A DNA stretch of 64,000 bases from assembly GCA_017427775.1 (NCBI GenBank), contig JAFRSD010000017.1, positions 1 to 64,000 on the forward strand, written 5' to 3'. Made by a program: the position numbers and the translations under genes. The notes under the pieces are model-generated. The model searched no databases. It was not told the origin of the DNA and saw only the letters and a list, made by a program, of their open reading frames with translations. This DNA is from Lachnospiraceae bacterium. Lineage in GTDB: Bacteria; Bacillota; Clostridia; Lachnospirales; Lachnospiraceae. Shown here one piece after another: positions 35,107 through 51,065 of the stretch (the first letter of the stretch is position 1; each line of letters starts with the position of its first letter).

Positions 35107-38353
<3,247 letters not shown>

Positions 38354-38379
38354 CGCTCTTTCCTCCGAAAATATCATTA

Positions 38380-38430: not shown

Positions 38431-40218
38431 TTACTCTACATCCTGCAAAGCGTCGTAACCTTCCTCACCGGTACGAACCTTTACAACATTCTCAACATCG
38501 TATACGAAGATCTTGCCGTCACCGATATGGCCGGTGTACAGAACCTTCTTCGCGGTCTCGATAACGCTTCGAACCGGAACCTTGCTGACAACGATATCAA
38601 CCTGGATCTTAGGAAGCAGGGTTGCCTCAACCGGAACACCACGGTAGTATTCCGGAGTACCCTTCTGCACGCCGCAGCCGAGTACGTGGGATACCGTCAT
38701 ACCGGTAATTCCGAGATCCATCATCGCGTTCTTCAGACTCTCAAGACGCGTTTCCTTACAAACGATCTCAACCTTTGTGAACTTCGGTGAACCGTCATCG
38801 AAGGAAGCCACCTTCTTCACCGGAATCGCTTCCGCAACCGGCGTATCGCCGACAACCGCGACAGGAGCAGCGGGCTGCGGGGCACCTGCAAGAGCGAGGG
38901 TACCGAAACCGTAATCCACGCTTTCAACTGCCGGTACGAAATCGGAGTATGCACTCAGAAGACCATGCTCGGTGCTGTCCAGTCCGCGAAGCTCTTCTTC
39001 CTGCGAAACACGGATGCCGATTGTCTTTTTCAGGATGACAAATGTGATCAGCATCGTTACGGTCGTCCAGGCAAGGATGGCTGCAATACCGAGCGTCTGA
39101 ACGCCCAACAGCTTTGCGCTGCCGGTATAGAACAGACCCTTAAGACCTGCGGGTGCGTCAGGGTTAGCCAGCAGACCTACCGCGATGGTACCCCAGACAC
39201 CGTTTGCAAAATGAACGCCTACGGCACCGACCGGATCGTCAATGTGAAGCTTCAGATCAAGGAACTCTACAGCAACTACTACGAGGATACCGGATACAAC
39301 ACCGACAATCACGGAACCGAGAGCGTCAAGCGCGTCGCATCCTGCGGTGATGCCGACAAGTCCGGCAAGGGAACCGTTCAAACACATCGAGACATCGGGT
39401 TTGCCGTTCTTAACCCAGGTAAATACCATCGTTACACAGGTGGCAACAGCGGGAGCAATCGTCGTGGTTACGAAGATGGATGCAAGGGAGTTTCCGTCCC
39501 AGGCGGCTGCGCCGTTGAAACCGTACCAGCCGAACCAGAGGATGAAGCATCCGAGTGCTCCGAGCGTGATCGCGTGACCGGGAATAGCATTTACCTTCTT
39601 AACCTTACCCTTTTCGTCACGGATGTATTTTCCAAGACGGGGACCTACAAGGATCGCACCGATCAAAGCGGTAACACCGCCGACGGAATGGATGGCTGCG
39701 GAACCTGCAAAATCATGGAAGCCCATCTTAACGAGCCAGCCCTGCGAGTTCCAAACCCAACCGGCTTCCACCGGGTATACAACCAACGAAATAACACCGG
39801 AATAAATACAATACGAAATAAATTTGGTACGTTCTGCCATGGCGCCCGATACGATCGTTGCTGCCGTAGCACAGAACACCAGGTTAAATACGAACGCAGG
39901 GGCATTTCCGTCTGCAAGGAATCCGCCGAAATCGGTCAGGATTTTCAAATTCGGAACGCCGATGAAGCCGCAGACATAATCTTCTGCCATCATCAGGCTG
40001 AAGCCGAGGAGGATAAATACGACAGTGCCGATACAGAAATCCATCAGGTTCTTCATGATGATATTGCCTGCATTCTTGGCACGGGTAAAACCGGTCTCAA
40101 CCATTGCGAATCCGGCCTGCATAAAGAATACAAGGGCTGCGCCGATCAAAAACCAGACGGCGAATACTTCACCGGTAACGGCTTCCTGTAATGCTTTCGT
40201 GATTTCTTCTGTTAACAT
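38431..40218 (-). CDS. Ammonium transporter fused to a PII regulator domain
   Basis: Residues 1-420 are a complete AmtB-type channel with 11 helices; the twin His are in GSAAIHSVGG and AVGVHFANGVWG. After an Ala/Pro-rich linker (about 430-478) comes a full PII (GlnB/GlnK) domain, residues 479-595, with the T-loop QKGTPEYYRG including the Tyr at the usual uridylylation place, and the C-terminal nucleotide-binding TGHIGDGKIFVY and RTGEEG. PII normally docks as a separate protein to close the channel; here the lock is built in. ATG 40218 is chosen over GTG 40227, which is too near the AAGGA site. It follows glnN by 64 bases. Confidence 0.9.
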   Translation of the reverse strand: MLTEEITKALQEAVTGEVFAVWFLIGAALVFFMQAGFAMVETGFTRAKNAGNIIMKNLMDFCIGTVVFILLGFSLMMAEDYVCGFIGVPNLKILTDFGGFLADGNAPAFVFNLVFCATAATIVSGAMAERTKFISYCIYSGVISLVVYPVEAGWVWNSQGWLVKMGFHDFAGSAAIHSVGGVTALIGAILVGPRLGKYIRDEKGKVKKVNAIPGHAITLGALGCFILWFGWYGFNGAAAWDGNSLASIFVTTTIAPAVATCVTMVFTWVKNGKPDVSMCLNGSLAGLVGITAGCDALDALGSVIVGVVSGILVVVAVEFLDLKLHIDDPVGAVGVHFANGVWGTIAVGLLANPDAPAGLKGLFYTGSAKLLGVQTLGIAAILAWTTVTMLITFVILKKTIGIRVSQEEELRGLDSTEHGLLSAYSDFVPAVESVDYGFGTLALAGAPQPAAPVAVVGDTPVAEAIPVKKVASFDDGSPKFTKVEIVCKETRLESLKNAMMDLGITGMTVSHVLGCGVQKGTPEYYRGVPVEATLLPKIQVDIVVSKVPVRSVIETAKKVLYTGHIGDGKIFVYDVENVVKVRTGEEGYDALQDVE

Positions 40219-40282
40219 AGTGGTCACTTCCTTCTTCGGTTATTTGGTTTCCCAATTTGTAAACCCCGCCAATATAACCTTC

Positions 40283-42388
40283 TTATTTTACGCCGAACAG
40301 AAGCTCGCCGTAGGTCGGGAACGGCCAGTAGCTGCGTGCCGTAATAACTTCCGCCTGATCGCACGGGATACGGAGCTCGCTCATCTTCGGCAGGAGAATG
40401 TCTCTTACGAGACCCGACTCTTCGATGATGTCGCCTGCGCCGGCAACCTTAAGAATTGCTTCCGCAAGTTCATCGGTACGTGCGCTGATGGAATCCGTCA
40501 GACTTGACAGCTTCTTAACCAGTTCGGTTTCATATCCGCATCCGAGACCCGGAACAACCGCTTTCTTGGCAGCTGCCGCCTTCGCTACGTCGCTTGCATA
40601 TGCTTCCACGGCCGGAGCAATCAGCGTTCTTGCCATGTCCACCATCGTATTTGCCTCGATTACTACGCTCTTGCAGTAGTTCTCAAGCATGATATCGCAA
40701 CGGGAACGAAGCTCTTCTTCACTGAATACGCCAAGTCCTGTAAGCATCTTAACGTTCTTTTCATCCAGCAGATGCGGCATGCAGTCTGCGGTGGTACGGT
40801 AGTTGAGAAGGCCCCTCTTCTCAGTTGCTTCCTTGATCCATGCATCGTCATAACCGTTACCATTGAAAATAATGCGTTTATGATCGTGGAACGTCTTCTG
40901 AATCATCTCATGAAGCGTTGTCTCGAAATCCTCTGCCTTCTCCAGGCGGTCTGCGTAGATTCTGAGGCTCTCCGCTACGGAAGCGTTCAGCATGATGTTC
41001 GCGCAGGCAATGCTGTTAGAGGAACCGAGCATACGGAACTCGAACTTGTTGCCGGTAAATGCGAACGGTGACGTACGGTTACGGTCGGTCGTGTCACGAT
41101 TGAACTTCGGAAGTACGTCAACACCGAGTTTCATCTGTGTCTTCTCAGCGCCTGCATAAGGCTTGCCGCTCTCAATCGCTTCCATAACGGCATTCAGCTC
41201 ATCGCCGAGGAAGATTGAGATAACAGCCGGAGGTGCCTCATTGGCTCCGAGACGATGGTCGTTACCTGCGGTGGCAACGGAAAGTCTCAACAGATCCTGG
41301 TAATCGTCAACCGCTTTGATCACGGCACACAGGAACAACAGGAACTGTGCATTTTCATAAGGCGTCTCGCCCGGGGAAAGAAGGTTCTGGCCGTTATCGG
41401 TAGCGATGGACCAGTTGTTATGTTTACCGGAACCGTTCACGCCTGCGAAGGGCTTCTCATGTAAGAGACATACAAGACCGTGCTTTGCGGCAACCTTCTG
41501 CATGATCTCCATCGTCAGCTGGTTGTGGTCGGTTGCGATGTTGGTCGTGGAGTAGATCGGTGCCAGCTCATGCTGCGCGGGAGCCACCTCGTTGTGCTCC
41601 GTCTTAGCAAGGATGCCGAGCTTCCAAAGTTCTTCGTTCAGTTCTTCCATGAAAGCGGCAACTCTCGGCTTGATAACACCGAAGTAATGATCGTCCATCT
41701 CCTGTCCCTTCGGAGGCTTCGCACCGAAAAGGGTGCGGCCGGTGAAGCAAAGGTCAGGACGTTTGTTAAACATTTCTTTCGTAACAAGGAAGTATTCCTG
41801 CTCCGGACCTACCGAGGAAACAACGCGTTTCGCGGTCTTGTTTCCGAACAGCTTCAGGATTCGGAGAGCTTCTTTGCTGAGCACTTCCATCGAACGGAGC
41901 AAAGGCGTTTTCTTATCAAGGGCCGGTCCGCCGTAGGAACAGAACGCCGTCGGGATGCAAAGCGTCTTTCCTTTAATGAATGCGTAAGAGGTAGGATCCC
42001 ATGCGGTATATCCTCTCGCCTCGAAGGTTGCGCGGAGGCCGCCGCTCGGGAACGAGGATGCGTCCGGCTCACCTTTGATGAGCTCCTTGCCGGAGAATTC
42101 CATGATCACGCCGCCGTCGGGAGACGGGGAGATAAAACTGTCATGCTTTTCCGCGGTAATACCGGTAAGCGGCTGGAACCAATGGGTGAAATGTGTAGCT
42201 CCCTTCGATACCGCCCAGTCCTTCATCGCTTCCGCCACGGCATTGGCAACCCGGATATCCAGCTCCGCGCCTTCATCAATCGTGCGGCGCAAAGAAGAGT
42301 AAACCTTTGCTGAAAGCTTTGCCTTCATTACTCTGTCGTCAAATACCATGCTTCCGAAGTAATCGGAAATCGTTTTCGTAGTTTCCAT
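40283..42388 (-). CDS. glnN: Glutamine synthetase type III
   Basis: The 701-residue length and the N-terminal pattern [52 protein letters not shown] and [19 protein letters not shown] identify the large type III enzyme of anaerobes. It makes glutamine from glutamate, ammonium and ATP in the cytosol. ATG 42388 follows AAAGGAG; the open frame upstream crosses an RNA leader. It is the first gene of the nitrogen operon, with a consensus promoter at 42565-42593 and two tandem hexaloop-hairpin/terminator units in between, so expression needs antitermination. Confidence 0.93.
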
Positions 42389-42421
42389 CGTGCGTCTCCT
42401 TTCATATCGGAAATAAAGAAA

Positions 42422-42452
42422 GCGCCTCTCATGCCATAGACATGAAAGACGC
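42422..42452 (-). terminator. glnN leader terminator 2 (proximal)
   Basis: On the minus strand GCGTCTTTCATG pairs with CATGAGAGGCGC (with G-T pairs), seven-base loop, followed by TTTCTTTATTT. The first stem bases are shared with the hexaloop hairpin at 42445-42462, so the two folds exclude each other. Confidence 0.8.
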
Positions 42453-42462
42453 CATTGCCTTT
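42445..42462 (-). promoter_or_regulatory. ANTAR-type hexaloop hairpin 2 in the glnN leader
   Basis: On the minus strand AAAGGC pairs with GTCTTT around the six-base loop AATGGC, which has A at position 1 and G at position 4, the marks of ANTAR-protein targets. Its 3' arm is the 5' arm of terminator 2. Binding would hold the terminator open. Confidence 0.7.
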
Positions 42463-42515
42463 CCGAAATACGTATTCTGTTTATGATCGTGCGGGTGTCC
42501 CGCAAAAAAGAAAAA

Positions 42516-42544
42516 GCGCCTCTGAGCCTGTTGCTCAAAGACGC
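42516..42544 (-). terminator. glnN leader terminator 1 (distal)
   Basis: On the minus strand GCGTCTTTGAGC pairs with GCTCAGAGGCGC (12 bp with two G-T pairs), five-base loop, followed by TTTTTCTTTTTT, a very strong intrinsic terminator within 50 bases of the predicted transcription start. Confidence 0.88.
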
Positions 42545-42554
42545 CGTTGCCTTT
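42537..42554 (-). promoter_or_regulatory. ANTAR-type hexaloop hairpin 1 in the glnN leader
   Basis: AAAGGC pairs with GTCTTT around loop AACGGC (A at 1, G at 4). It starts only a few bases from the predicted 5' end, and its 3' arm is the first arm of terminator 1. Same stem as hairpin 2, one loop base different. Confidence 0.7.
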
Positions 42555-42564
42555 TCATGTGCCA

Positions 42565-42593
42565 TTTATACACCTTGCCGCGCAGAATGTCAA
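42565..42593 (-). promoter_or_regulatory. Promoter of the glnN operon
   Basis: On the minus strand TTGACA (42588-42593) and TATAAA (42565-42570), 17 bases apart. The predicted start near 42558 leaves about 170 bases of leader. The region 42389-42745 has no gene; it holds this leader, a hairpin and the divergent amidase promoter. Confidence 0.85.
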
Positions 42594-42662
42594 GCCTCTT
42601 TTTCAAAAATCCCTTGCGTAAGATTTTTCGCATCCCCGTAACGGCGGGATTGCAACGACAGC

Positions 42663-42689
42663 AGAGCCGGTCTATGGATGACCGGCTCT
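42663..42689. terminator. Hairpin between the divergent promoters
   Basis: AGAGCCGGTC (42663-42672) and GACCGGCTCT (42680-42689) pair perfectly; TTCTCTTGTG follows on the plus strand. It lies upstream of both promoters, so it may insulate the amidase gene from stray transcription. Confidence 0.5.
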
Positions 42690-42693
42690 TCTC

Positions 42694-42722
42694 TTGTGTG
42701 AGGCACTGTTCTATGCTATCAT
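42694..42722 (+). promoter_or_regulatory. Promoter of the amidase gene
   Basis: TTGTGT (42694-42699) and TATCAT (42717-42722), 17 bases apart, about 24 bases before ATG 42746. Confidence 0.6.
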
Positions 42723-42745
42723 GGAATGCGGAGGAGGGACGGACT

Positions 42746-44002
42746 ATGGATAGGATATCGGAAGCGATCCGCCGTGCAAAAGAAATCGGCGGACCGGACG
42801 TATTGAATTGTATTGCGGAACTCGATGAGAACGCTGCAGCAACAGCGATGCCGGGAGATACGCTCCCGCTTTCGGGGATTCCCATTCTTATTAAAGACAA
42901 CATAGACGTCAAAGGATTCCATACGACGGCCGGGAGCCTTGCGTTAGCGGACAATCTGGCGGAGAAGGACGCGCCCGTGATCGCGAATCTGCGCCGAAAC
43001 GGTGCCGTCATTATCGGGAAAGCCAACATGACCGAATTTGCCAATTTCGTTTCGACGAATATGCCCGGCGGATACAGTTCCCGCGGCGGGCAGGTCAGGC
43101 ATGCGGTAAGCGCGGACCTGGATCCGCTCGGATCATCCACCGGTTCGGCTGTTGCGGTGGCAGCAGGCATTGTTCCGATGGCGGTCGGAACCGACACTTC
43201 CCATTCGGTTACAGGCTGCGCGATGGGCAACGGCATCTGCGGATTAAAGCCGCCGGCAGGCACCCTTTCGCAGGAGGGAATCATTCCGATTTCGAAGACC
43301 TTCGACAGTGCCGGGGCAATGGCCATGAATATGAAGGATACGCTCCTGCTCTATTCCGCCATGCGGGACGAACCGTTACCCGAGATTAAACCGACCCCCG
43401 CAGGAGAACTTCGGATTGCGGTGAATACGGCCAACGCCGATATGAACCCGGAGGAACGAAAGGCATTCCTTAGTGAAGTAATCGAGACTCTCAGGAAAAA
43501 CGGAGCCGTAATTGCCGATGTCGATGAGCCGCCGACACCGGAACTTCCCGCAATAATGAAACGGGAGTTCGGACCGGGACTCGCGGAATACCTGAAAAAG
43601 AGTACGGCTAAGCTTAAGACGCTTAAAGAAATCGTCGAATACTTCGAGGCACACCCGGATACGATGATGAAGTACGGGTACGATTTGCTGCAGGGAGCGC
43701 TGTACGAGGATTCGGAAGGGCCCTCGGTAGAGGAAGCGTACCAAAAGGCCATGAAATCCCGTGCGAATCAGATCAAGAATGTCACGGAGGAAATCGCGGA
43801 TTTCGATGCCGTGCTGATTACCGGTCCGACCTACGTCAATCACCTCTGCGGGCTTCCGACAGTCACTGTTGCCGGCGAAAGTTCTGACTCCCATGGCGTG
43901 AGGCAGGCGTTAATGCTGTACGGAACAGACGAGTGCAGACTGTATGCGGCAGCACTTACGGTGGAAAGTCTGTTAAAAAAGTGCTTGACAAATAAAAAAT
44001 GA
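42746..44002 (+). CDS. Amidase-signature family protein
   Basis: The 418-residue protein has the Ser-Ser-Lys triad regions of the family: Lys in GIPILIKDN, the cis-Ser in DPLGSSTGSAVAVAAG and the nucleophile Ser region GTDTSHSVTGCAMGNGICGLKPP. The last differs from the usual GTDTGGSIR-x-PA-x-x-CG, although Ser is kept. Similar proteins hydrolyse amides; GatA, the tRNA amidotransferase subunit, is the best-known relative, but no gatB or gatC is near. ATG 42746 after GGAGGAGGG. Its 3' end contains the promoter of the glutamate synthase operon, and a role in releasing ammonium is suggested by position only. Confidence 0.82.
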   Translation: MDRISEAIRRAKEIGGPDVLNCIAELDENAAATAMPGDTLPLSGIPILIKDNIDVKGFHTTAGSLALADNLAEKDAPVIANLRRNGAVIIGKANMTEFANFVSTNMPGGYSSRGGQVRHAVSADLDPLGSSTGSAVAVAAGIVPMAVGTDTSHSVTGCAMGNGICGLKPPAGTLSQEGIIPISKTFDSAGAMAMNMKDTLLLYSAMRDEPLPEIKPTPAGELRIAVNTANADMNPEERKAFLSEVIETLRKNGAVIADVDEPPTPELPAIMKREFGPGLAEYLKKSTAKLKTLKEIVEYFEAHPDTMMKYGYDLLQGALYEDSEGPSVEEAYQKAMKSRANQIKNVTEEIADFDAVLITGPTYVNHLCGLPTVTVAGESSDSHGVRQALMLYGTDECRLYAAALTVESLLKKCLTNKK

Positions 44003-44013
44003 AACATTACAAT
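43985..44013 (+). promoter_or_regulatory. Promoter of the glutamate synthase operon
   Basis: TTGACA (43985-43990) and TACAAT (44008-44013), 17 bases apart, embedded in the last codons of the amidase gene. The predicted start is at about 44020. Confidence 0.82.
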
Positions 44014-44019
44014 GCGGTT

Positions 44020-44041
44020 AAATGAGCAAAGGCGTTCATTT
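44020..44041 (+). promoter_or_regulatory. ANTAR-type hexaloop hairpin of the glutamate synthase leader
   Basis: AAATGAGC pairs with GTTCATTT (8 bp, one G-T) around loop AAAGGC: A at position 1, G at position 4. It begins at the predicted 5' end. Its loop and 3' arm form the 5' arm of the terminator at 44028-44077. The loop pattern AANGGC matches both hairpins of the glnN leader. Confidence 0.72.
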
Positions 44042-44077
44042 TCATACCCGAAAGGGGTGTGGAAGTGGACGCCTTTT
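44028..44077 (+). terminator. Leader terminator of the glutamate synthase operon
   Basis: A 22-bp stem (44028-44049 with 44055-44076) in which the only imperfect pairs are four G-T wobbles, loop GAAAG, followed by TTCTGTGTT. It lies 40 bases before ATG 44116 and must be avoided for expression. Confidence 0.85.
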
Positions 44078-44115
44078 CTGTGTTATCCGGAGTTTTTCCA
44101 AAGGAGGAAATAAAC

Positions 44116-45216
44116 ATGGCTGCGTTACGGGAAGGCGAAGTCCGGATTCCGTCCGGATGTGCGATAGCTGCCGTTATCTCAAAAGAAGGAAAGAAAATGA
44201 GCGGACAGGCGATCATTGAGTCGATGAAGCCGATGCATGACCGAAGCAACGGACTCGGCGGCGGATTTGCCGGCTACGGAATCTATCCGCAGTATAAAGA
44301 TTACTATGCATTCCACCTGTTCTTTGATTGCCGTGATACCAGAAAGGCCTGTGAGGCTTTTCTTAAAGAACATTTTGAAGTGATCAAGGGTGAGCTGATC
44401 CCGACCAGAAAGATTCCGGAGATCACGGACGAGCCTATCATCTGGCGTTATTTCGTAACGCCGCTCAAGTCGGTTCTTGCGGATCTGCAGCTCGATGAGA
44501 AGGAATTCGTGGCTCGCACCGTTATGAAGATCAATACGGAAATGGACGGCGCGTATGTCTTCTCAAGCGGCAAGAATATGGGAACCTTCAAGGCTGTCGG
44601 CTTCCCCGAGGATGTAGGCCGGTTCTACCGCCTCGATGAGTATGAAGGCTACTGCTGGACCGCGCACGGCCGTTATCCGACCAACACCCCCGGCTGGTGG
44701 GGCGGCGCGCATCCGTTCACACTCCTAGATTATTCGGTTGTCCACAACGGCGAGATTTCGTCGTACGATGCCAACCGCCGCTTCATCGAGATGTTCGGCT
44801 ACAAATGCAACCTCCAGACCGATACGGAGGTTATCACTTACATTTTAGACTATCTCCTTCGTGTGCAGGGTCTGACGCTCACGGAAGCGGCCAACGTCAT
44901 CGCCGCCCCGTTCTGGAGCACGATTGAAGCAAAAACCGATGAATATGAGAAGAAGAAACTGGAATTCCTGCGGACCGTGTTCCCGAGCCTGCTCGTCACG
45001 GGACCTTTCTCGATCGTCCTCGGATTTGACGGCGGCCTGATGGCCCTCAACGACCGTCTGAAACTACGGTCGATGGTGGTCGGCGAGAAAGACGACAAAG
45101 TCTATATCGCCAGCGAGGAAGCTGCAATACGCGTTATGGAGCCGGATGTAACGAAAATCTGGGCTCCGGCCGGCGGTGAACCGGTAATCGTTCGCGTAAA
45201 GGAAGGAGCATACTGA
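44116..45216 (+). CDS. Glutamate synthase, glutaminase (GATase II) subunit
   Basis: The 366-residue protein is the class II amidotransferase part of a split glutamate synthase. MAALREGEVRIPSGC ends in the presumed N-terminal nucleophile Cys (residue 15) after a short propeptide. HGRYPTNTPGWWGGAHPF, HNGEISSY and LQTDTEV are the glutaminase motifs. It frees ammonia from glutamine for the synthase subunit. ATG 44116 follows AAGGAGG. Its stop overlaps the next start (TGATG). Expression depends on the leader terminator upstream. Confidence 0.85.
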   Translation: MAALREGEVRIPSGCAIAAVISKEGKKMSGQAIIESMKPMHDRSNGLGGGFAGYGIYPQYKDYYAFHLFFDCRDTRKACEAFLKEHFEVIKGELIPTRKIPEITDEPIIWRYFVTPLKSVLADLQLDEKEFVARTVMKINTEMDGAYVFSSGKNMGTFKAVGFPEDVGRFYRLDEYEGYCWTAHGRYPTNTPGWWGGAHPFTLLDYSVVHNGEISSYDANRRFIEMFGYKCNLQTDTEVITYILDYLLRVQGLTLTEAANVIAAPFWSTIEAKTDEYEKKKLEFLRTVFPSLLVTGPFSIVLGFDGGLMALNDRLKLRSMVVGEKDDKVYIASEEAAIRVMEPDVTKIWAPAGGEPVIVRVKEGAY

Positions 45217-46721
45217 TGGGCATCGATTTTATCTATCCGGAATTTGAAGTTGTGCGGAACCCGGACCGCTGCATTGCCTGCCGCGTCTGCGAACGGCAAT
45301 GCGCCAACGAAGTACATACACTGAACCCCGACACCGGCCGGATGATCAGCGACGAAAGCAAATGCGTCAACTGCCAGCGCTGCGTATCGCTCTGTCCGAC
45401 CCGGGCTTTGAAGATCGTCAAGAGCGACTGCCTGCTTCGGGAAAATGCGAACTGGCAGAATGATACGATCCGTGAAATCTACAAACAGGCGGGAAGCGGC
45501 GGCGTACTGCTCTCTTCGATGGGCAATCCGAAACCGCTCCCGGTTTACTGGGACAAGATCCTGATCAATGCTTCGCAGGTTACCAACCCTCCGATCGACC
45601 CGCTCCGTGAGCCGATGGAAACGCAGGTAACACTCGGCAAGCGTCCGAAGGCCATGAAACGTGACGAGAACGACAAGCTGATCTGCGAACTCCCGCCGCA
45701 TGTAACCCTTTCCATGCCGGTAATGTTCTCGGCCATGAGCTACGGTTCCATCAGTTATAACGCGCATGCATCCCTTGCACGCGCGGCTACGGAACTCGGC
45801 ATCCTTTACAATACCGGTGAGGGCGGACTGCACGAAGACTTCTATGTATACGGACCGAATACGATCGTACAGGTTGCAAGCGGACGTTTCGGCGTGCATG
45901 AGCAGTACCTCGAAGCCGGCGCGGCAATCGAGATCAAGATGGGCCAGGGCGCAAAGCCCGGTATCGGCGGACATCTTCCCGGCGCGAAAATCGTCGGCGA
46001 CGTATCGCGTACCCGTATGATTCCCGAGGGTTCGGACGCCATCTCTCCGGCTCCTCACCATGACATTTATTCGATTGAAGACTTAAGACAGCTTGTCTTC
46101 TCCCTGAAGGAAGCAACCGGCTACCGGAAACCCGTTATCGTTAAGGTAGCTGCCGTACATAACATAGCAGCAATCGCAAGCGGTATCGCCCGCAGCGGTG
46201 CCGACATCATCGCGATCGACGGTTTCCGCGGCGGTACCGGCGCGGCTCCCACCAGAATCCGTGATAATGTAGGTATCCCGATCGAGCTTGCGCTTGCAGC
46301 CGTAGACCAGCGTCTCCGTGACGAAGGAATCCGTAACGATGTATCTCTCGTTGTCGGCGGTTCCATCCGAAGCGCTTCCGATGTTGTCAAAGCCATCGCA
46401 CTCGGCGCAGACGCCTGCTATATCGCGACTGCTGCCCTTCTTGCACTCGGCTGTCATCTGTGCCGTACCTGTCAGAGCGGCAAATGTAACTGGGGTATCG
46501 CGACCCAGCGTCCGGACCTTGTAAAACGTCTCAATCCCGACCTTGGCAGTGAACGTCTCATCAACCTGATGACCGCCTGGAAGCACGAGATCAAAGAGCT
46601 CATGGGCGGCATGGGAATCAACTCCGTCGAAGCTCTTCGCGGTAACCGCCTGATGCTCCGCGGCGTCGGTCTGAACGAAAAAGAACTGGAGATTCTCGGA
46701 ATCTCCCACGCAGGAGAGTAA
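45216..46721 (+). CDS. Glutamate synthase, FMN/Fe-S synthase subunit
   Basis: The 501-residue protein starts with a ferredoxin-like domain (CIACRVCERQC and CVNCQRCVSLCP, about residues 19-66), followed by the FMN barrel: MPVMFSAMSYGSISYNA, GQGAKPGIGGHLPG, IDGFRGGTGAAP and the 3Fe-4S Cys set CHLCRTCQSGKCNWGI. It joins ammonia to 2-oxoglutarate and reduces the product. This is the archaeal-type GltB form, also common in Clostridia. ATG 45216 overlaps the upstream stop. Confidence 0.88.
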   Translation: MGIDFIYPEFEVVRNPDRCIACRVCERQCANEVHTLNPDTGRMISDESKCVNCQRCVSLCPTRALKIVKSDCLLRENANWQNDTIREIYKQAGSGGVLLSSMGNPKPLPVYWDKILINASQVTNPPIDPLREPMETQVTLGKRPKAMKRDENDKLICELPPHVTLSMPVMFSAMSYGSISYNAHASLARAATELGILYNTGEGGLHEDFYVYGPNTIVQVASGRFGVHEQYLEAGAAIEIKMGQGAKPGIGGHLPGAKIVGDVSRTRMIPEGSDAISPAPHHDIYSIEDLRQLVFSLKEATGYRKPVIVKVAAVHNIAAIASGIARSGADIIAIDGFRGGTGAAPTRIRDNVGIPIELALAAVDQRLRDEGIRNDVSLVVGGSIRSASDVVKAIALGADACYIATAALLALGCHLCRTCQSGKCNWGIATQRPDLVKRLNPDLGSERLINLMTAWKHEIKELMGGMGINSVEALRGNRLMLRGVGLNEKELEILGISHAGE

Positions 46722-46725
46722 GCCT

Positions 46726-47166
46726 ATGAAACGAGTTTATGTCAACGAAGAATGGTGTCTCGGCTGCCACCTGTGCGAATACAACTGCGCATTTGCCGAC
46801 ATGGGCGGTGTCAGCATGGCGAGCGCCCTCATGGGTAAGGAAATACACCCCCGCATTCATGTGGAGGAAGGGGACGCGATCACATTTGCCGTATCGTGCC
46901 GCCACTGTACCGATCCGATGTGCATGAAGAGCTGCATTGCCGGTGCCATTTACCGGGAGGACGGTGTCGTAAAGATCCGCCGCGAACGGTGTGTTTCCTG
47001 TTTCACCTGTGTTCTCGTATGTCCGTACGGCGCGCTTACGCCGGTGGAAGGCAGCCCGATGCAGAAATGCGAGCTCTGTCTTTCAAACACCAACGGAAAG
47101 CCTGCCTGCGTGACCGGGTGCCCGAATCACGCGATAGTTTATGAAGAGCGAGGTGAAAGCCTATGA
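46726..47166 (+). CDS. 4Fe-4S ferredoxin subunit
   Basis: The 146-residue polyferredoxin has the HycB/DmsB-type pattern of four Cys clusters: CLGCHLCEYNC, CRHCTDPMCMKSC, CVSCFTCVLVCP and CELC...CVTGCP. It probably carries electrons between the oxidoreductase and synthase subunits. It starts four bases after the synthase stop and overlaps the next gene by four bases (ATGA). Confidence 0.83.
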   Translation: MKRVYVNEEWCLGCHLCEYNCAFADMGGVSMASALMGKEIHPRIHVEEGDAITFAVSCRHCTDPMCMKSCIAGAIYREDGVVKIRRERCVSCFTCVLVCPYGALTPVEGSPMQKCELCLSNTNGKPACVTGCPNHAIVYEERGESL

Positions 47167-48395
47167 AACGCTATGTGATCATCGGGAACGGCGTTGCTGC
47201 CGCCGGGTGCATCGAAGGAATCCGCAGCGTTGACACGGAAGGTCCGATCACCGTTGTTTCCGCCGAGAAGCACGGCGTCTACTGCCGCCCGCTCATCTCC
47301 TATTATCTTGAGGGTAAGACGGACCTCACAAAGATGGCTTACCGCCCCGCGGATTTCTATGAGAAGAACGGTGCGGAAGTTCTGTACGGACGCAGCGCAA
47401 CTTCCGTTGATAAGGATGGGAAGACCGTTACCCTTGATGACGGAACCGTACTTTCTTATGACGCCCTTTGCGTTGCAGCAGGTTCTTCCCCCTTTGTTCC
47501 GCCCATGGCCGGACTTGATACCGTTCCCGAGAAATTCTCTTTCCTGACGCTTGATGACACGCTTGCACTCGAGAAAGCACTCTTTCCGGAAGCCCGCGTT
47601 CTGATCGTTGGCGCCGGTCTGATCGGCTTAAAATGTGCGGAGGGACTGCTCGGCCGCGTCGCAAGTATTACGGTATGTGATCTCGCGGACCGTGTTCTTT
47701 CGAGCATCCTTGATAATGAGTGCGCCGCTTTGATGCAGTCTCATCTGGAAGCCCACGGAATGCATTTTCTTCTGTCCGACAGTGTCGCGGAATTTACCGG
47801 CAAGACCGCCCACATGAAGAACGGCGCCGAGGTTCCCTTCGACATTCTGGTTCTTGCGGTCGGTGTCCGCGCGAACATCGGACTGGTTAAAGATATCGGC
47901 GGAGAGGTCGGACGCGGAATTCTGATTGATGACCGTATGGCGACTTCGATCCCGGATATCTACGCCGCAGGCGACTGCGCGGAAGGTTATGACCTGAGTA
48001 TCGGAAAGACCAGGGTGCTTGCCATCTTCCCGAATGCATATATGCAGGGACATACCGCCGGCATCAACATGGCCGGAGGCACGGAGGAATTCAAAAAAGG
48101 CATGCCGATGAACTCCATCGGTTTCTTCGGACTTCACGCCATGACGGCGGGTTCCTACGAAGGAGACCTTTATGAAGAGAAAACCGGTCATTCCATCAAA
48201 CGGCTGTATGTGAAAGACAATCACCTGAAGGGCTTCCTTTTGATCGGATGCGAGGAGAGAGCCGGCATCTATACCTCGCTGATCCGCGAGCAGACGCCGC
48301 TTGACGGCATCGACCTCGAGCTGCTCAAAAAGCACGCGACGGCCGCTGCATTTTCCGTAGAAACCCGTAGAAAAAAGTTTGGAGGTGTGGTATAA
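47163..48395 (+). CDS. FAD-dependent NAD(P)H oxidoreductase subunit
   Basis: The 410-residue protein has two Rossmann folds: an FAD loop at the N-terminus (YVIIGNGVAAAGC) and a pyridine nucleotide loop at about residue 146 (VLIVGAGLIGLKCAEGL), then the FAD-closing IYAAGDCAE. It belongs to the NADH-rubredoxin/nitrite reductase-like group, not to the usual GltD subunit. In this operon it most likely feeds electrons from NAD(P)H through the ferredoxin to the synthase. Confidence 0.84.
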   Translation: MKRYVIIGNGVAAAGCIEGIRSVDTEGPITVVSAEKHGVYCRPLISYYLEGKTDLTKMAYRPADFYEKNGAEVLYGRSATSVDKDGKTVTLDDGTVLSYDALCVAAGSSPFVPPMAGLDTVPEKFSFLTLDDTLALEKALFPEARVLIVGAGLIGLKCAEGLLGRVASITVCDLADRVLSSILDNECAALMQSHLEAHGMHFLLSDSVAEFTGKTAHMKNGAEVPFDILVLAVGVRANIGLVKDIGGEVGRGILIDDRMATSIPDIYAAGDCAEGYDLSIGKTRVLAIFPNAYMQGHTAGINMAGGTEEFKKGMPMNSIGFFGLHAMTAGSYEGDLYEEKTGHSIKRLYVKDNHLKGFLLIGCEERAGIYTSLIREQTPLDGIDLELLKKHATAAAFSVETRRKKFGGVV

Positions 48396-48397
48396 CT

Positions 48398-49120
48398 ATG
48401 ACAACGATATACGCACAGGGACTTGATCATAAAGCGCTTAATGAAAGCATCCGCGGCGCGCAGGGAGACTGCCTGTTAGAGGGCTGTCTCGGGCAGCGTT
48501 TCATTGCTTCCGGCATGTCCGGCAAGAACGTGACCATCACGGGTGTTCCGGGCAATGCGCTCGGCGCCTACCTGAACGGCTCGCACATTACCGTGCAGGG
48601 CAATGCGCAGGATGCAGTCGGCGATACGATGAACGAAGGAGTCATTGAGGTTCACGGAGATATCGGAGATGCCGCAGGATACGCGATGCGCGGCGGACGG
48701 ATTTATGTGAAGGGCAATGCCGGATACCGTGCCGGAATCCATATGAAGGCTTTCCATGAAAAGTTTCCGGTTATGGTCATCGGCGGATGCGCCGGCAGTT
48801 TCCTCGGGGAATACCAGGCAGGCGGCATCATCGTTGTACTCGGTCTTACGGATTCGGACCGCAGGATCGTCGGCAACTTCCCTTGTACGGGAATGCACGG
48901 CGGCAAGATGTTCCTGCGTTCATCCTGCGAGGACATCACATTTCCCGCCCAGGTAACCGCACGTCCCGCTGAGGAAGCGGACCTTGCGGAGCTTCGACCG
49001 TATCTTACGGATTACTGCAAATGCTTCGGACTCAACGCAGAGGACCTTCTGAAGGATCCTTTCACCGTTGTTACGCCGGACAGCCGCAACCCGTACCGTC
49101 AGATGTACGTCGCGAATTAA
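48398..49120 (+). CDS. Glutamate synthase GXGXG-domain subunit
   Basis: The 240-residue protein is the isolated C-terminal GXGXG domain of the large glutamate synthase subunit: repeats such as GNALGAYLNGSHITVQGN, GDAAGYAMRGGRIYVKG build a right-handed beta-helix that shapes the ammonia tunnel. The start follows the oxidoreductase stop by two bases, after GGAGGTG. With the three subunits upstream it completes the enzyme. Confidence 0.85.
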   Translation: MTTIYAQGLDHKALNESIRGAQGDCLLEGCLGQRFIASGMSGKNVTITGVPGNALGAYLNGSHITVQGNAQDAVGDTMNEGVIEVHGDIGDAAGYAMRGGRIYVKGNAGYRAGIHMKAFHEKFPVMVIGGCAGSFLGEYQAGGIIVVLGLTDSDRRIVGNFPCTGMHGGKMFLRSSCEDITFPAQVTARPAEEADLAELRPYLTDYCKCFGLNAEDLLKDPFTVVTPDSRNPYRQMYVAN

Positions 49121-50432: not shown

Positions 50433-50483
50433 TCACTGATACCAATACCCGGACGGCACGCTGTTTCGGAGAAAGGAGTGCGC

Positions 50484-51065
50484 ATGACCCTCAAAGAACG
50501 TGTCTACAGCGTTTTGATCGTATCCGCGAAGTCGCCCGTGAATACTGCGCTTTCGCAGCTGCTGCCGGACGTGCGCTACTCCCCGGTGATCTCCGTCCCG
50601 AACATCAGTGCCGCGCGAAGACTGTTGAGCGAGCAGCACTTTGACCATATCATTATCAATGCGCCGCTTTCCGACGAGGTCGGCACCCGGTTTGCCATCG
50701 ATGCTGCCACCGCCGGTACCGTTGTGCTGCTTTTGGTCCCTTCGGAACACCATGCGGACATTCTCGACAAAGTCGGCGCGCACGGCGTATTTACCCTCGC
50801 AAAGCCTACCTCACAGATGGTTCTCACCATTGCGCTCGAATGGATGTCCAGCGCCCGCGAACGTCTCCGCAAACTTGAAAAAACCACGCTTTCCGTGGAA
50901 GCCAAGATGGAGGAGATCCGTCTCGTGAACCGCGCCAAATGGCAGCTCATCTCCTCTCTCAACATGGATGAACCGCAGGCCCACCGCTATATTGAAAAGC
51001 AGGCCATGGACCGCTGCGTCTCGAAACGTGAGGTGGCCGAGGAAATCTTAAGAACGTACTCGTAA
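50484..51065 (+). CDS. ANTAR-domain antitermination regulator with degenerate receiver
   Basis: Residues 1-125 fold like a response-regulator receiver but lack the acidic pocket: LIVSAKS stands where two acidic residues are expected and the phospho-acceptor Asp is replaced by Asn (HIIINAPL); the Lys of TLAKPT is kept. A coiled coil (about 120-140) leads to an ANTAR domain (LVNRAKWQLISSLNMDEPQAHRYIEKQAMDRCVSKREVAEEIL). ANTAR proteins bind hexaloop hairpins in nascent RNA and prevent termination. The targets are probably the leaders at 42445-42554 and 44020-44041. ATG 50484 after AAAGGAG. It overlaps the convergent next gene by 18 bases. Confidence 0.88.
   Translation: MTLKERVYSVLIVSAKSPVNTALSQLLPDVRYSPVISVPNISAARRLLSEQHFDHIIINAPLSDEVGTRFAIDAATAGTVVLLLVPSEHHADILDKVGAHGVFTLAKPTSQMVLTIALEWMSSARERLRKLEKTTLSVEAKMEEIRLVNRAKWQLISSLNMDEPQAHRYIEKQAMDRCVSKREVAEEILRTYS

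Follow-up and report, generated by a model that had tools for sequence, protein, structure and literature searches.

The leader of glnN in the analysed window (the whole stretch of 64,000 nucleotides) is probably made up of two ANTAR-controlled transcription attenuators, each complete and one behind the other, in which a single hexaloop would be enough for each gate. The elements, the predicted mutual exclusivity of hairpin and terminator, their conservation, the missing room for a P1 hairpin and the co-occurrence with an ANTAR gene are properties of the sequences and their comparison; the ANTAR protein is the presumed trans-acting regulator of the units. There is a better-than-even case that a large branch of ANTAR systems in Clostridia uses single 5'-end hexaloops with one site per terminator, and that two or even three gates stacked in glutamine-synthetase leaders multiply independent occupancies and so give a sharp nitrogen switch without cooperative binding. 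The features are collected in Table 1.

Table 1. Features of the glnN leader and its gene neighbourhood in the window.
Feature	Coordinates	Strand	Basis
Sigma-70-type promoter TTGACA-17-TATAAA, near-consensus	42565..42593	-	Sequence
Unit 1 hexaloop hairpin AAAGGC(AACGGC)GTCTTT, predicted antiterminator	42537..42554	-	Sequence, folding, covariation
Unit 1 intrinsic terminator and U-tract	42504..42545	-	Sequence, folding, covariation
Unit 2 hexaloop hairpin AAAGGC(AATGGC)GTCTTT	42445..42462	-	Sequence, folding
Unit 2 intrinsic terminator and U-tract	42411..42453	-	Sequence, folding
glnN, type III glutamine synthetase, first gene after the leader	40283..42388	-	Pfam GSIII_N, E 6e-80
Ammonium transporter fused to PII domain, probable operon gene 2	38431..40227	-	Co-transcription inferred from spacing and strand
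Asparagine synthase B, probable operon gene 3	36770..38377	-	Operon inferred
Promoter TTGACA-17-TACAAT of the divergent glutamate-synthase operon	43985..44013	+	Sequence
Third unit, single: AAATGAGC(AAAGGC)GTTCATTT and 21-22-bp terminator	44020..44080	+	Model E 0.012, folding
Glutamate-synthase-type genes	44116..49120	+	Pfam for three of five ORFs, other two by eye
ANTAR gene (pseudo-receiver and ANTAR), downstream of glnA	50478..51065	+	Operon membership inferred from spacing

Both units are located on the minus strand, upstream of the glnN start codon (ATG at 42388). The end of the -10 box is separated from the first hexaloop stem by 10 nt, and the hairpin of unit 1 lies near the point where the transcript is inferred to start. 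The terminator stem-loop of unit 1, GGCGTCTTTGAGC(AACAG)GCTCAGAGGCGCT, occupies 42545-42515 and is followed by the U-tract to 42504; the terminator of unit 2 occupies 42453-42421 and its U-tract 42420-42411. The two terminator stems have 13 or 15 bp, with a U-rich tract behind each. In both units the GGC of the loop together with the 3' arm of the hexaloop hairpin forms the start of the terminator 5' arm. Two serial units, each with one hairpin that overlaps its own terminator, had been described in the first-pass annotation; the sequence bears this out, and the tandem form was seen again in relatives. The span given there (42422..42593) covers the promoter and the units, but ends one base before the end of the 3' arm of terminator 2 and omits its U-tract. 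The spacing of about 80 bases was measured as 92 nt from unit start to unit start, with a gap of 74 nt between the hairpins. The 6 bp stems are identical, as had been noted; each holds one G-U pair, and that of unit 2 extends to 7 bp once one extra pair is counted.

The hexaloop 18-mer, at up to three mismatches, was found at two sites in the window compared with 0.11 expected from dinucleotide shuffles, and no further copies were found in the rest of the 64 kb. The folding energy of the leader is -67.7 kcal/mol (shuffled mean -39.4; z -7.2). With the terminator sequence left out, a check that had been proposed earlier, the small hexaloop hairpins formed at -4.6 kcal/mol in unit 1, which is no better than shuffles (z -0.7), and at -7.8 kcal/mol in unit 2 (z -3.6). 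When the terminator sequence was added, the terminators outcompeted the hexaloops (-26.4 and -29.0 kcal/mol for units 1 and 2, respectively), and the hairpin and the intrinsic terminator are predicted to be mutually exclusive. Rfam gave no match in the window at the gathering score; at relaxed thresholds, the region 42380-44200 gave just matches far under the gathering scores, none of which was relevant.

From this arrangement, a mechanism can be proposed. By default, each terminator would form and RNA polymerase would stop. On nitrogen shortage the ANTAR protein from the neighbouring operon would become active and would bind each A1/G4 hexaloop on its exit from the polymerase; the stem of the first begins a few nucleotides from the inferred transcript start. 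A hexaloop hairpin held in this way would withhold the GGC and the GUCUUU arm from the terminator, and read-through would follow. Passage of both gates would be required to reach glnN, and independent gates would multiply. Several gates in series would therefore leak less and give a steeper curve, and the steeper, AND-like response that the first-pass annotation had put forward is plausible.

The units were followed in related genomes. In a pattern search of 61 genomes, 13 members of the same genus (the present one included) had motif pairs 85-162 nt apart upstream of glnN, and a 14th, G011, has a pair with a different stem sequence. The 22 genomes of the genus, again including the present one, thus comprise 14 with the tandem form at this glnN and four with one unit (G004, G012, G013 and G015); G006 and G017 yielded no unit at this gene, and this copy of glnN is absent, as judged by match length, in G020 and G021. 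A covariance-model search of related genomes also returned paired units. Among 27 units from 24 leaders, positions C6, A7, A8, G10, G11 and G13 were invariant. In this alignment, 90.7% of the cells of the hexaloop stem and 97.5% of those of the terminator stem were paired, values that are biased upward, since the scanner used for selection accepted a unit only with both hairpins; double changes occurred in four of six and eight of 12 pairs, respectively, and pairing fell to 37-63% in slid-partner controls. The corresponding values for 96 distinct matches in 80 named loci were 96.2 and 98.3% in an alignment that is fitted to the model and overlaps the first set (at least L191 and L192 look like contigs of G005 and G014). 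A1 was present in 82 and G4 in all 84 of the model matches read, although the model itself favours both. The three strands covary together because one 3' arm serves both the hexaloop stem and the terminator stem. The loops and the hairpin/terminator overlap, on whose conservation the earlier proposal had been made to depend, are thus retained in relatives, and both stems covary.

These data also bear on the reading that the main role of the hairpins is in RNA stability or processing, with a hairpin at the 5' end protecting the mRNA and the terminators merely lowering basal transcription. The first hairpin is indeed close to the inferred 5' end, but covariation of the hexaloop arms with the terminator 3' arm and a constant G4 would be unexpected for a stability hairpin and the second units are internal, so we regard this reading as very unlikely.

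The genes behind the units are mostly nitrogen genes: glnN, glutamate synthase, asnB, amt and gdhA by Pfam, and carA, glnA and PII by eye. A unit was also observed before a gene with a product that starts like MAAFERVKSGIPEMDRAF, at position 1095 (plus strand) of L228, L232 and L235 and further in L270 (G020), G008:C49:1850 and L284 (G187). The L232 product has 856 amino acids with a pyruvate phosphate dikinase ATP-binding domain (Pfam PPDK_N), an unexpected regulon member. In L178 (G056:C13:413916) a unit-like match with a 4 bp stem and no promoter found precedes a gene whose product, by eye, starts like a nitrogenase iron protein.

The attenuators proposed here would each use a single hexaloop. 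The distance from the end of the -10 box to the stem is 4-13 nt in 69 of the 79 leaders of the named loci and in 21 of the 29 leaders of a draw of genomes from the class. A further set of relatives gave 64 units that are first or single, and in 50 of these the distance is 2-13 nt; in shuffled upstream DNA the 4-13 nt spacing occurred in just 2.9%. A transcript that starts there has no room for P1. The remaining leaders have a promoter match farther away or none, and some of these may be operon-internal or may have a P1. In the 45 nt upstream of second units, an A1/G4 hairpin was found in one of 25 (1.14 expected from mononucleotide shuffles), and unit 2 of the window has none within this distance. 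The loops AACGGC and AATGGC have the A1 and G4 of dual-hexaloop targets. The window leader nevertheless falls outside the dual-hexaloop definition (P1 and P2 with a 2-25 nt linker), with no room before unit 1 and the 74 nt gap. A P1 hidden before unit 2 was considered and rejected. The spacer hairpin GCGGGACACCCGC (42503-42491) has a triloop; among the leaders inspected it recurs, in altered form, in L025 only.

Dual-hexaloop leaders were also encountered. An upstream A1/G4 hairpin (at least 4 bp, at most 60 nt away) was found in three of the 29 class-draw leaders, L303, L294 and L304. That of L303 (G063) belongs to a close dual-hexaloop pair before an ammonium transporter gene, and that of L304 overlaps the promoter. 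The glnN leader of G049 (L272) has a P1 of AGGGC(AATGGG)GTCCT and a P2 with the loop GATGGC, which is thus not A1. From their sequences, single- and dual-hexaloop designs seem to coexist within the class, and L272 and L303 are usable as an internal comparison.

For the number of units per leader, the glnN start was located in 46 of the 80 named loci and a hairpin was counted only if it had the loop AA and a stem of 5 bp or more (strict rule). By this rule, 27 of the 46 leaders have at least two hexaloops, 17 have one and two have none, a count in which L214 qualifies via a non-unit A/T hairpin and which misses L228, L232, L235 and L239, where the first stem has 4 bp. The rule found 72 hairpins in the glnN leaders and 1.6 in shuffled leaders. 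A relaxed rule (stem of at least 3 bp) gave 39 of 46, partly from chance hairpins in coding sequence, and the strict count was therefore used. Several leaders that are single by the covariance model have a second unit on inspection. By the strict rule the tandem form is also present in L246 and L247, from Lachnospiraceae bacterium 3-1 and A2, whose genomes are not metagenome assemblies. The units of the 16 model-found pairs are 63-88 nt apart, and over all sets the unit starts are 63-162 nt apart. In L200, L212, L213, L215 and L218 (minus strand) a pair lies in front of the gene that precedes glnN, and glnN itself has another unit directly before it; the preceding gene is glutamate dehydrogenase by Pfam in L213 and, read from the intervening ORF, in L200, and by eye in the other three. 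Such glutamate dehydrogenase-glnN operons may have three gates.

Two other readings of the tandem form can be weighed here. The two hexaloops might be P1 and P2 of one dual-hexaloop target into which a terminator has been inserted, with one dimer, or a handover, bridging the two; the first-pass annotation had likewise considered a single dimer shared across the first terminator. The established dual requirement of EutV (reported in PMC3369931 and PMC8934654) and the frequency of leaders with two or more hexaloops speak for this arrangement. It is nonetheless distinctly unlikely: lone units occur in the same genome (at 44020) and, in others, before glutamate-synthase genes, asnB (L016, Pfam), amt (L143, Pfam) and, by eye, carA, glnA and others, and the start spacings noted above exceed the 2-25 nt linker given for the dual motif in PMC8164766. 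Alternatively, only the gene-proximal second unit might regulate, the first being a relic duplicate. Some leaders do have a single unit (L237, L253, L254 and L259, by the strict rule), yet the promoter-abutting first unit of tandem leaders retains both loop and stem, and we give this reading hardly any credence.

The two positions of the tandem differ in their competing hairpins, which cover 83% of the hexaloop 5' arm in second units versus 53% in first units (27 folded each, the first units including the false one from L214). The gene-proximal unit also has a second subtype, observed in L191, L192, L199, L211, L226, L250 and others: here the competing hairpin takes in the whole hexaloop element including the 5' arm, and the U-tract is sometimes short. 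In L191 and L192 there is little or no U-tract directly behind this hairpin, so some second units may not be terminators. Decay as the cause of the missing U-tract after the second unit in the relatives of L191 and L192 was considered and rejected, since other leaders, too, commonly have a long competing hairpin that spans the entire hexaloop. Translational control was also rejected: in most of the leaders inspected by eye, about 30 nt separate the end of the second hairpin from the ATG, and the ribosome site is not covered.

The third unit of the window is a single one. It lies directly behind its promoter and before the glutamate-synthase-type genes (first ATG at 44116, plus strand), was the only extra full unit in a looser scan of the window, and has counterparts before the glutamate-synthase gene in relatives. 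The plus-strand gene run continues from the glutamate-synthase genes through glnA to the ANTAR gene, which, judged from this gene order, may be controlled by its own product via the third unit. The PII domain of the ammonium transporter fusion could, as a guess, be the signal partner of the ANTAR protein.

The ANTAR gene lies 8 kb from the leader and is the only one found in the 2.6-Mb genome (E 9e-17). Its product matches Rv1626, AmiR and EutV among solved structures. By our own residue count in the alignment with EutV, the ANTAR domain keeps M172 (the methionine plug), has Arg at the positions of K143 and K147 and His at that of Y164, as in AmiR, and has Ile at that of R142. The contact residues of EutV are those given in PMC8934654, where R142 is reported to be important for binding. 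At the presumed phospho-acceptor column, read from the receiver pattern, Asn61 is found in 30 of 30 aligned ANTAR proteins, and Pfam Response_reg scores under its cut-off (23.4 versus 30.2 bits). The receiver domain thus looks like a pseudo-receiver without the phospho-acceptor Asp on which EutV-type phosphorylation would depend.

Unit matches and ANTAR genes occur together. At E<=0.05, matches were found in 42 of 46 relatives with an ANTAR gene and in three of 15 without (22 of 26 and two of 13, respectively, outside the genus). In the class draw of 245 genomes, at E<=0.001, the values were 58 of 124 and six of 121, and 66 of the 124 ANTAR-positive genomes thus had no match at this threshold. 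The genomes are related, so Fisher tests overstate the independence and significance of this co-occurrence. Three ANTAR-negative genomes have intact-looking A1/G4 units: G020 (L270; 82% complete), G099 (L304; 96%), where the unit lies before glnN, and G103 (L291; 97%). Missing assembly parts or another regulator may account for these. In L079 (G042), a genome with no ANTAR gene detected, the glnN terminator is kept but the scanner finds no A1/G4 hexaloop stem; the unit may have decayed once the regulator was lost.

That the units work but are opened by some other factor (an RNA-binding protein, a small RNA or a metabolite) would agree with the pseudo-receiver and its Asn61, with the six ANTAR-negative class genomes that have matches and with the intact-looking hexaloops in G020, G099 and G103. 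Against it stand the A1/G4 loops, the linkage and co-occurrence of the ANTAR gene, and the ANTAR-negative G042 and G052, whose matches lack an A1/G4 hexaloop stem by the scanner. We consider such a factor unlikely and retain the ANTAR protein as the presumed regulator.

The number of hexaloops and dimers per ANTAR target is contested between the genetics of eutP (PMC3369931) and the crystal structure (PMC8934654). For eutP, both hairpins are reported to be needed in vivo, with deletion of P1 abolishing induction (PMC3369931), and antitermination was lost when 20 nt were added between P1 and P2 (PMC8934654). For NasR, binding to a single hairpin takes about 12 uM (PMC7496416), and the ANTAR target motif is described as requiring two stem-loops with a 2-25 nt linker (PMC8164766). 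The dual need in eutP, the linker effect, the weak binding of a single hairpin by NasR and the change of R142 to Ile count against the reading of one hexaloop per gate. For their part, the authors of the crystal structure report that one dimer cannot hold both hexaloops at once, redefine the minimal site as one hexaloop and call for work on single-hexaloop targets (PMC8934654).

If the reading proposed here is true, the dual-hexaloop rule is not general. A widespread natural form with a single hexaloop abutting the promoter would be a simple system for tests, and serial gating could be measured directly where one genome has both single and tandem leaders. It also suggests that searches with dual-hairpin models could miss single-hexaloop leaders. 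In the titles and abstracts searched, we found no single-hexaloop or tandem ANTAR leader attenuators; the original NitR work was outside this search. The first-pass annotation had considered the arrangement undescribed, and nothing alike appears in those titles and abstracts; however, several dual-hairpin elements per transcription unit are known from Desulfotomaculum (PMC3369931).

The closest precedents concern nitrogen genes. Desulfotomaculum acetoxidans is reported to have at least 13 ANTAR elements in six transcription units of nitrogen genes (Ramesh et al. 2012, PMC3369931). As here, there are several elements per transcription unit; unlike the single units described here, those elements were found with a dual-hairpin covariance model and each comprises P1 and P2. 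In Clostridium saccharobutylicum, the ANTAR antiterminator NitR is said to switch on GS/GOGAT genes when nitrogen is limiting (Stutz et al. 2007, as cited in PMC6316151). Control of such genes by an ANTAR protein is what is proposed here; type III glnN and tandem units are absent from the description consulted (PMC6316151). In the window the ANTAR gene is linked to glutamine- and glutamate-synthase genes. The two systems probably represent the same regulatory branch. AmiR shares with the present protein the pseudo-receiver, the ANTAR domain and a His at the RNA-stacking position, and itself senses amides through AmiC. With eutP/G/S/A-EutV of Enterococcus faecalis, nasF-NasR of Klebsiella oxytoca and amiE-AmiR of Pseudomonas aeruginosa the leader has in common an A1/G4 hairpin that overlaps the terminator 5' arm, an ANTAR protein and nitrogen-related genes, and the eut operon also has several gates, with terminators reported in series along it (PMC3369931). 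The stems in the window have 6-8 bp, compared with 3 bp in the search motif given in PMC3369931. The eut, nas and ami leaders have two hexaloops per terminator, whereas here there is one, the hairpin adjoins the inferred transcript start and two gates stand within one leader.
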